A stretch of 42,991 nucleotides of DNA from NCBI GenBank assembly GCA_017436525.1, contig JAFSCX010000043.1, positions 1 to 42,991 of the forward strand. The letters are read 5' to 3'. Below are positions 1 through 999 of this stretch, in pieces. Source of the stretch: Clostridia bacterium (GTDB lineage: Bacteria > Bacillota > Clostridia > Oscillospirales > QAKW01). Below the pieces are notes generated by a model that worked only from the letters and a program-made list of their open reading frames with translations, had not been told where the DNA came from and searched no databases. Numbering within the stretch: the first letter of the stretch is position 1; every line of letters starts with the position of its first letter. The translations under genes and the position numbers were made by a program.

Positions 1-8
1 CAAAAAAG

Positions 9-49
9 GCACAGACCGCAGAAAATAAAAGAATAAAAGAATTCTGCCG
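9..49. repeat. 41-bp repeat, copy 1
   Basis: This 41-bp stretch recurs at 12473-12513 with 38 of 41 bases the same by eye. It begins GCACAGACCGCAGAAAATAA and ends in GAATTCTGCCG. GCAGAA and TTCTGC form a small stem inside it. It lies downstream of spoVT; the other copy lies at the end of a decayed AraC gene. Function is unknown. Confidence 0.7.
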
Positions 50-459
50 ATTCAATAAATCAGCAAGGGAAAAGAAATCCTACTCTTTTTCCTTGCTTTC
101 TTATTATAAGGAAAAATCCGCATGATGAGGCGGATTTAGATTGAAATTTTCTGCTTTTCGCCAAAATAACCTCTCGACGTATCAATATACGACTTCGGGT
201 TATTTTGACGAAATCTGCACTCTTTTTTGAGAGTCTCCCAGCGTGTCAAAAACCTCCGCAGGAGTTTTTTGACACGCTGGAAAAATGCATCGGTTTTTTC
301 ACCGATGCATTTTTTTCCTTCACTTTCATGAAATTCACCGAATTTCATGAAAATATCACTGCCCCAAGGGCAATATCACTTGCGCCATTAGCGCAAATAT
401 CACTCTTTTTGAATTTCTGATTCAAAAAGAATAGCACTGCAAATCGCCTTGCGATTTGC
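20..459. repeat. Chain of about 12 consecutive short hairpins after spoVT
   Basis: No gene is supported in this 459-base stretch. It is filled by back-to-back inverted repeats: 20-49, 62-97, 114-137, 159-210, 219-234, 238-280 (15-bp perfect arms), 281-314 (14-bp perfect arms), 324-352, 361-371, 381-395, 405-429 (10-bp arms) and 439-459 (9-bp arms). The last one touches the spoVT stop codon. The four hairpins nearest spoVT are separated from each other, and from the hairpin at 324-352, by the nonamer AATATCACT (once AATAGCACT) on the plus strand, which is AGTGATATT on the spoVT transcript strand. Arm sequences differ from hairpin to hairpin while the spacer is kept. The first hairpin could act as a spoVT terminator, but one terminator would not need a dozen stems. 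Confidence 0.8.
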
Positions 460-999
460 TTACCCTTCCAGTTGCTTGCCTAAGAATTGTGCTCCCACCT
501 GTATCATCCGCTCCTCGGCAGGGCTCGGCCGCTTTTCTCCGTTTTGAATCAAAGAGATCATCCCCGCAAGATCCCCGCCGGCGATGATGGGATAAAAGGA
601 TAATACCCGAAGCTGATCCTGATCCCGCAAAAGAGGAAAGCCCGAAGCTTCGCTTTCCGCACCGATGGCGCGCCGCGCGCTCATCAGTTCCTCGCAGCGT
701 GCACTGATCTCCCGCTCAAGGGCTTCCCGCTTGCCCGCGCCCGCAAAAGCGACCACCCGATCCCGATCGCAAACCGCGCAGGAAAATCCCGTTACCGTAT
801 GGACTGCCGCCACATACTCCGCCGCATGATCCGCCAAACTCTCCATAGGCGAGTATTTCTTAAAGACCACCTCGCCCTCTTTTCCGGTAAAAATTTCCAA
901 AGGATCGCCTTCGCGAATCCGCATCGTTCGACGAATTTCTTTGGGGATAACGACCCTTCCCAAATCGTCAATTCTTCTCACAATTCCAGTTGCTTTCAT
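460..999 (-). CDS. spoVT: SpoVT, AbrB-type sporulation transcription regulator
   Basis: SpoVT is a DNA-binding regulator active in the forespore late in sporulation. The 179-residue protein has the family length. Residues 1-50 form the AbrB swapped-hairpin DNA-binding domain, with the typical MKATGIVRRIDDLGRVVIPK start and the REGDPLEIF segment. Residues from about 55 to 178 form the GAF-like sensor domain. The start is ATG at 999. An AAGGAGA ribosome site lies about 14 bases upstream, inside the arm of a long stem (1010-1064). The gene stands alone. Its stop codon abuts the hairpin chain to the left, and the GH116 gene ends 100 bases upstream. Three partial copies of its leader and first codons occur elsewhere in the window. 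Assignment is firm from the N-terminal signature and length. Confidence 0.93.
   Translation of the reverse strand: MKATGIVRRIDDLGRVVIPKEIRRTMRIREGDPLEIFTGKEGEVVFKKYSPMESLADHAAEYVAAVHTVTGFSCAVCDRDRVVAFAGAGKREALEREISARCEELMSARRAIGAESEASGFPLLRDQDQLRVLSFYPIIAGGDLAGMISLIQNGEKRPSPAEERMIQVGAQFLGKQLEG

Follow-up and report, generated by a model that had tools for sequence, protein, structure and literature searches.

The chain of inverted repeats that separates spoVT from the start of a contig in the genome of a Clostridia bacterium is a composite of two independent dispersed elements and one terminator, placed side by side. The best joint explanation, to which we assign a probability of about 0.7, is that it comprises a copy of a Gut-1-type hairpin array, the spoVT terminator, and a second mobile repeat, here called repeat A. 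On this reading, what has been published as an RNA family makes up one half of a dispersed hairpin element, and next to it lies a mobile repeat with the unusual property of duplicating terminators.

Organization of the window

The window, i.e., the whole analysed stretch of 42,991 nucleotides, is the start of one of the 60 contigs of a 1.75-Mb, 99%-complete genome. The spoVT gene (positions 460-999, minus strand) codes for a protein of 179 amino acids with an AbrB/MazE-type N-terminus and a SpoVT_C domain (Pfam, E 1.3e-28). The original prediction described the interval between spoVT and the contig start as short inverted repeats laid end to end; it is indeed largely made of inverted repeats, but these form three parts and not one chain, and the repeat that fills the left 60% of the interval is unrelated to the array with which it had been merged.

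The first part, a partial copy of the array (315-459), lies between the spoVT stop codon and the spoVT terminator. It starts directly after the stop codon with the hairpin GCAAATCGC-AAG-GCGATTTGC on the spoVT (minus) strand (439-459, arms 439-447/451-459), devoid of a T-run, and continues towards the contig start with the hairpin CTTTTTGAATTTCTGATTCAAAAAG (405-429, in an inverted repeat spanning 404-430 with arms 404-414/420-430), two short hairpins covered by the Gut-1 alignment, TGCGC-CATTA-GCGCA (381-395) and GCCC-CAA-GGGC (361-371), and the last one, TTTCATGAAATTC-ACC-GAATTTCATGAAA (324-352, arms 324-336/340-352). The nonamer AATATCACT, said to recur between the four hairpins nearest spoVT, is exact at three spacers (352-360, 372-380, and 396-404, plus strand), while the fourth (430-438, plus strand) is a variant, AATAGCACT. 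That the array is neither a CRISPR array nor a plain tandem repeat holds; its constant part has 9 nucleotides and its variable part is palindromic, CRISPR arrays having constant repeats of ca. 21-48 nucleotides and non-palindromic spacers.

The second part is the intrinsic terminator of spoVT (281-314, minus strand), recognized from an inverted-repeat call and from its sequence: a AAAAATGCATCGGT hairpin with arms 281-294/301-314, followed by a T-run on the spoVT strand. Such a T-run accompanies none of the hairpins at 324-459, so only the 281-314 hairpin has the features of an intrinsic terminator. The third part, repeat A (1-279, minus strand), belongs to a dispersed element of ca. 285 or ca. 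393 bp; it is truncated by the contig start and abuts the terminator. Its left inverted end, CAGCGTGTCAAAAAA, was found by pattern match at 265-279 (minus strand). A 43-nucleotide hairpin (238-280, arms 238-257/261-280) marks the left end of the repeat and is also present in the copies L350-L365. A long internal hairpin (arms 156-182/187-213) is the counterpart of the TTCTCGTCGGCGTAC..GGGTACGGTAGAGAGC core found in other copies, and a further inverted repeat has its arms at 54-75/84-105.

Match to Gut-1 and spread of the array

The recurrence of the nonamer AATATCACT is far above chance: it occurs 62 times in the 1.75-Mb genome versus five times for the reversed control word, and pairs of nonamers spaced by a hairpin number 18 versus none for the control. 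The array was matched to the Rfam covariance model of Gut-1 (RF01706) over the full model (positions 1-77) at 337-405 on the minus strand, with 44.3 bits and an E-value of 3.4e-7, below the gathering score of 50. The three hairpins with GUGAAAU-like spacers that characterize Gut-1 are found in this alignment, the spacers reading GUGAUAU and the third hairpin being replaced by a different one. The genome harbours 22 Gut-1 matches including that in the window, several of them above 50 bits, with other copies reaching 51.6-58.7.

Genome counts were drawn from searches and from individually retrieved stretches. Within the order, the distribution of Gut-1 is patchy: at least 114 of 295 genomes have it, this count being a lower bound because few candidates were scored in each genome. 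In a phylum-wide sample it was found in four of 398 genomes, two of the four coming from the genus of the window. Weinberg et al. (2010; PMC2864571) list Gut-1 as a non-coding RNA from human gut sequence only, and the Rfam family is built on covariation. One unannotated gut phage record contains a 103-nucleotide array match, while a pattern scan of viral contigs gave mostly single matches that look like chance; no array was found on a plasmid.

Anatomy of the full element

Full copies of ca. 250-350 bp comprise two half-arrays in opposite orientation, one of them enclosed by a long helix, P1. An element starts with the hairpin H0 behind a gene or a tRNA, followed by AGTTxTATTCGCC, which is the 5' arm of P1 and the start of H1. 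The left half-array then runs H1-AGTGATATT-H2-AGTGATATT-H3-AGTGATATT-H4 and is closed by GGCGAATAx'A, the 3' arm of P1, after which the right half-array runs AATATCACT-H5-AATATCACT-H6-AATATCACT-H7-AATATCACT into a tail. The order of the half-arrays is nearly always minus then plus, and a unique P1 enclosing only one half is present in 64 of 72 elements. P1 and H1 use one common 5' arm and are thus alternatives to each other. Within one element the Rfam model hits each of the two halves, the one on the strand opposite to the other; hence Gut-1 as filed is half of the element. Spacers vary jointly within an element (GTGAAAT/ATTTCAC, GTGATAT/ATATCAC, or ATGATAT/ATATCAT).

The right end of many Gut-1 elements across genera is a conserved tail of ca. 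60 nucleotides (GAGTTCGARTTCATACGCAAAA..GCCGAAAATATCTTTTTT; L018, L026, L032, L312, L320, and L323). A short ORF in this tail was rejected as a candidate gene, its frame, judged by eye, not being conserved. Three tandem elements lie behind a single tRNA in L312 (2700-3800), the middle one with the ATGATAT/ATATCAT pair, unlike its neighbours. In some stems of right halves, e.g., CGTGAGCGTAAGCGAACG in L312 and others in L315, tandem G.A mismatches are seen, and only when the ATATCAC strand is read; 20 G.A cells were counted versus one T.C cell.

The stems of the array and P1 covary strongly, which answers positively the covariation check that the original prediction had proposed. Both sides were changed in 36 alignment cells of P1 and in 58 of the local hairpins (50 aligned left halves). 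The covariation scores, 0.193 for P1 and 0.286 for the hairpins, drop when the partner is slid and were reached by none of 500 shuffles, a count that is not a probability, the elements being related. At one P1 pair A-T is found in 21, C-G in 17, and T-A in 14 of 55 cases.

Genomic position and dispersal

The arrays are dispersed, mobile-like elements and not an RNA of spoVT, as follows from their location 3' of genes and tRNAs, their patchy presence in the order, and their absence from spoVT and rplQ in relatives. In at least 45 of 58 cases, the left end of the element follows the 3' end of a gene or tRNA that runs in the same direction; this is a lower bound, a few of the minus-strand calls being spurious ORFs (e.g., at rplQ in L022). 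A tRNA 3' end is situated within 250 nucleotides of 22 arrays and a tRNA 5' end of none, while the right neighbours are oriented at random (24 versus 23 by hand count). Hairpins separated by AGTGATATT, for which the original prediction had proposed a search, are indeed present in related Clostridia, but not behind the spoVT orthologues: in the seven relatives whose spoVT flank was read (the orthologues in G007 and G001 are not counted among them) no array but other sequence follows, mostly an ordinary terminator. Similarly, a plain terminator lies 3' of rplQ in five congeners (93-97% identical protein), and in this set only the genome of the window has a full element there.

In genome G263, seven copies in differing contexts are mostly 96-98% identical over 140-197 nucleotides. 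In several genomes (G211, G191, G263, and G030) Gut-1 elements are located ca. 160 nucleotides or less from contig ends, which suggests recent multi-copy spread. The array would thus spread as a non-autonomous mobile DNA element.

Behind protein genes, H0 has no T-run in 47 of 51 cases, and in 23 of these 51 there is a terminator after the element; judging from this arrangement, the element usually precedes any T-run and is probably also transcribed as a structured 3' UTR. In elements that follow tRNAs, H0 itself is often a terminator. In L031 (7058-7345) a stretch of the neighbouring tRNA 3' end (GGGTCGTTGGTTCGAGTCCA) recurs on the right side of the element, which suggests a duplication of the tRNA end. 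A comparison for duplication of H0 around Gut-1 elements gave one case among 52, a repeated tRNA 3' stretch, and hence no clear target duplication.

Folding as DNA or as RNA

On the ATATCAC strand, loops of the GNA or GNNA type were found in 41 of 61 distinct hairpins of the left half and in 56 of 93 of the right half, with no complementary TNC or TNNC loop on that strand in either half; the closing pair is C-G in 58 of 61 and 81 of 93 hairpins, respectively. As the same strand carries these loops in both halves, the loop type follows the polarity of the unit and not transcription. GNA and GNNA closed by C-G is the rule for extraordinarily stable DNA mini-hairpins such as d(GCGAAGC) (PMC4686876; Nakano et al. 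2002, as cited in PMC8373063). Terminators of the same DNA have GNA in only four of 55 triloops and GNNA in 13 of 146 tetraloops, all 13 being GNRA, while the arrays have 31 GNRA and 25 GNYA loops; the differences (p 0.0026 for GNRA versus GNYA, p 2e-9 for GNA) are optimistic values, because the copies are related and the statistics are not independent. Since the ATATCAC strand has GNA/GNNA loops with a C-G closing pair irrespective of the direction of transcription, the units may fold as single-stranded-DNA or cruciform hairpins, a conclusion that we hold at about even odds. It has its counterpoint in GNRA loops being stable in RNA too, and the ratio of G.U to A.C mismatches (23:19 in arrays and 89:49 in terminators, no significant difference) does not separate DNA from RNA.

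The strongest competing explanation, possible though rather doubtful, takes the array for a structured non-coding RNA or a 3' UTR element acting as RNA, e.g., in protection of mRNA 3' ends, its spread being incidental. The covariation on which the Rfam family rests (PMC2864571) was reproduced here, and the arrays always lie behind gene 3' ends in one orientation, a fixed arrangement that would suit an RNA role too; behind protein genes they are mostly upstream of any T-run and so likely transcribed, and the right half has many GNRA loops. In the left half, however, the sense transcript would have UNC/UNNC loops, which are not stable RNA loops, and GNA/GNNA in the right half only, while GNYA loops are almost as frequent as GNRA loops, which is not so in terminators. 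Moreover, H0 behind tRNAs is often a terminator in itself, and the arrays are absent at orthologous spoVT and rplQ genes. A bolder combined reading, held at less than even odds, would make both neighbours DNA-hairpin systems: Gut-1 would be not primarily an RNA but a mobile array whose orientation-specific units form ultra-stable hairpins of single-stranded DNA, and repeat A would belong to a fold-recognizing, terminator-duplicating transposon family.

Repeat A

Positions 1-285 of the window match ca. 40 places in the genome with 81-99% identity. The inverted ends of repeat A, CAGnnTGTCAAAAAA, have 70 matches in the genome versus none for the reversed control, and many of these lie near contig ends; the repeat thus breaks the assembly (60 contigs). 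Complete copies, ca. 285 or ca. 393 bp long, are bordered by terminal inverted repeats CAGCGTGTCAAAAAA / CAGACTGTCAAAAAA as in MITEs and abut a terminator hairpin. The same terminator-sized hairpin lies directly on both sides in 11-12 of the 16 full copies with both flanks, the number depending on gap settings. The flanking repeats are perfect over 33 bp in L351, 31 bp in L358, and 34 bp in L360, and the scores of a copy's own flanks reach 70, with a maximum of 26 for mismatched pairs taken across copies. The duplication ends mostly 0-2 and up to 4 nucleotides from the hairpin feet. Thus, in most full copies the target-site duplication, again as in MITEs, is the terminator hairpin itself, 28-38 bp long, which is unusually long and variable. 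In the window the repeat abuts the terminator at 281-314, and its far flank, with a predicted second terminator copy, lies beyond the contig start. Hairpin duplication around repeat A is also seen in two relatives (L393 and L395), and the repeat, with its conserved core hairpin, is present in other genomes of the order. In L354 (element at 275-562) the loops of the two terminator copies on either side of the element are oppositely oriented (TGAT versus ATCA), as if one hairpin had been inverted.

The arrangement of the copies suggests that repeat A probably inserts by recognizing folded terminators. A putative transposase would recognize the folded terminator and cut at both hairpin feet, and gap repair would then duplicate the whole terminator hairpin; such a fold-guided cut would explain why the duplication tracks the hairpin size. 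Identity as a group IIC intron was considered and rejected: no catalytic intron RNA was found, a group II intron match in Rfam being absent from both L026 and L358, and the sole RVT_1 gene of the genome is on another contig. An Rfam search of repeat A gave nothing convincing. Among the end pairs no autonomous transposon with repeat A ends was seen, many copies lying at contig ends, where the assembly breaks.

Search for a mobilizing enzyme and other explanations of the array

No mobilizing enzyme was found for either the array or repeat A. Reverse transcriptase genes do not co-occur with arrays. Of the proteins encoded next to arrays at 108 loci, those of an ABC-transporter cluster are the only ones to recur at more than five loci, and no likely mover does so; a serine recombinase occurs in three.

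A REP/BIME-like nature of the array, with mobilization by a REP-associated Y1 transposase, would agree with its extragenic, multicopy, inverted hairpin units and with loops suited to single-stranded-DNA hairpins, yet this possibility is improbable: the hairpin foot is CACT / AGTG and lacks a GTAG/GTGG guide, and a constant spacer with a varying hairpin is the reverse of REP. The Y1 transposase (PF01797, Y1_Tnp) is absent from the 99%-complete genome of the window and present in three of 12 genomes of the family, with no correlation with arrays. A local accumulation of palindromes by replication errors, with no element identity, is less probable still; template switching can make palindromes and P1 resembles a duplicated hairpin arm, but it is contradicted by the presence, in different genera, of homologous elements that are ordered and have their spacers and tails conserved. 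Of the original suggestions, a repeat growing by addition of palindromes came closest in spirit, as the units are modular, although they build ordered, dispersed elements. A structured 3' RNA specific to spoVT, suggested by the array following the spoVT stop codon and preceding the terminator of the gene, is refuted by the lack of an array at the spoVT orthologues read in relatives and by arrays behind many unrelated genes and tRNAs.

Were the combined reading of Gut-1 as mobile DNA and repeat A as a fold-recognizing transposon correct, an RNA family listed since 2010 with no function would be half of a dispersed element obeying a DNA loop rule, a warning that covariation alone is not proof of RNA, and structure-guided insertion that copies whole terminators would let a mobile element land with the host transcription end kept. 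The array and repeat A together probably account for assembly breaks in genomes of gut Clostridia.

Comparison with known systems

MITEs are short, multicopy elements with inverted ends and flanking duplications of fixed short length. Repeat A shares with them the size, copy number, inverted ends, and flanking duplications, but what it duplicates is a whole hairpin (28-38 bp). Group IIC introns sit directly behind terminator stems, as repeat A does, though no intron RNA or reverse transcriptase belongs to the latter.

The array resembles the REP/BIME elements served by Y1 transposases (PMC6006769) in comprising dispersed extragenic hairpins arranged in inverted pairs 3' of genes; it differs in that its spacer is constant and its hairpins vary, in the lack of a GT[AG]G guide, and in the absence of a Y1 transposase from the genome. 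With the stable DNA mini-hairpins it has in common the GNA/GNNA loops closed by C-G, GCGAAGC itself being among its units; those are known as oligonucleotides, whereas here they build a natural genomic array. Finally, the three hairpins with GUGAAAU-type spacers of Gut-1 (RF01706) are matched in the window and at 21 other sites of the genome. The Rfam entry, however, is one 77-nucleotide half, called an sRNA, whereas the element described here is larger and inverted and also comprises P1, H0, and a tail; it is found in many genomes of Clostridia, among them some from the ruminant gut, and has loops that follow the DNA rule.
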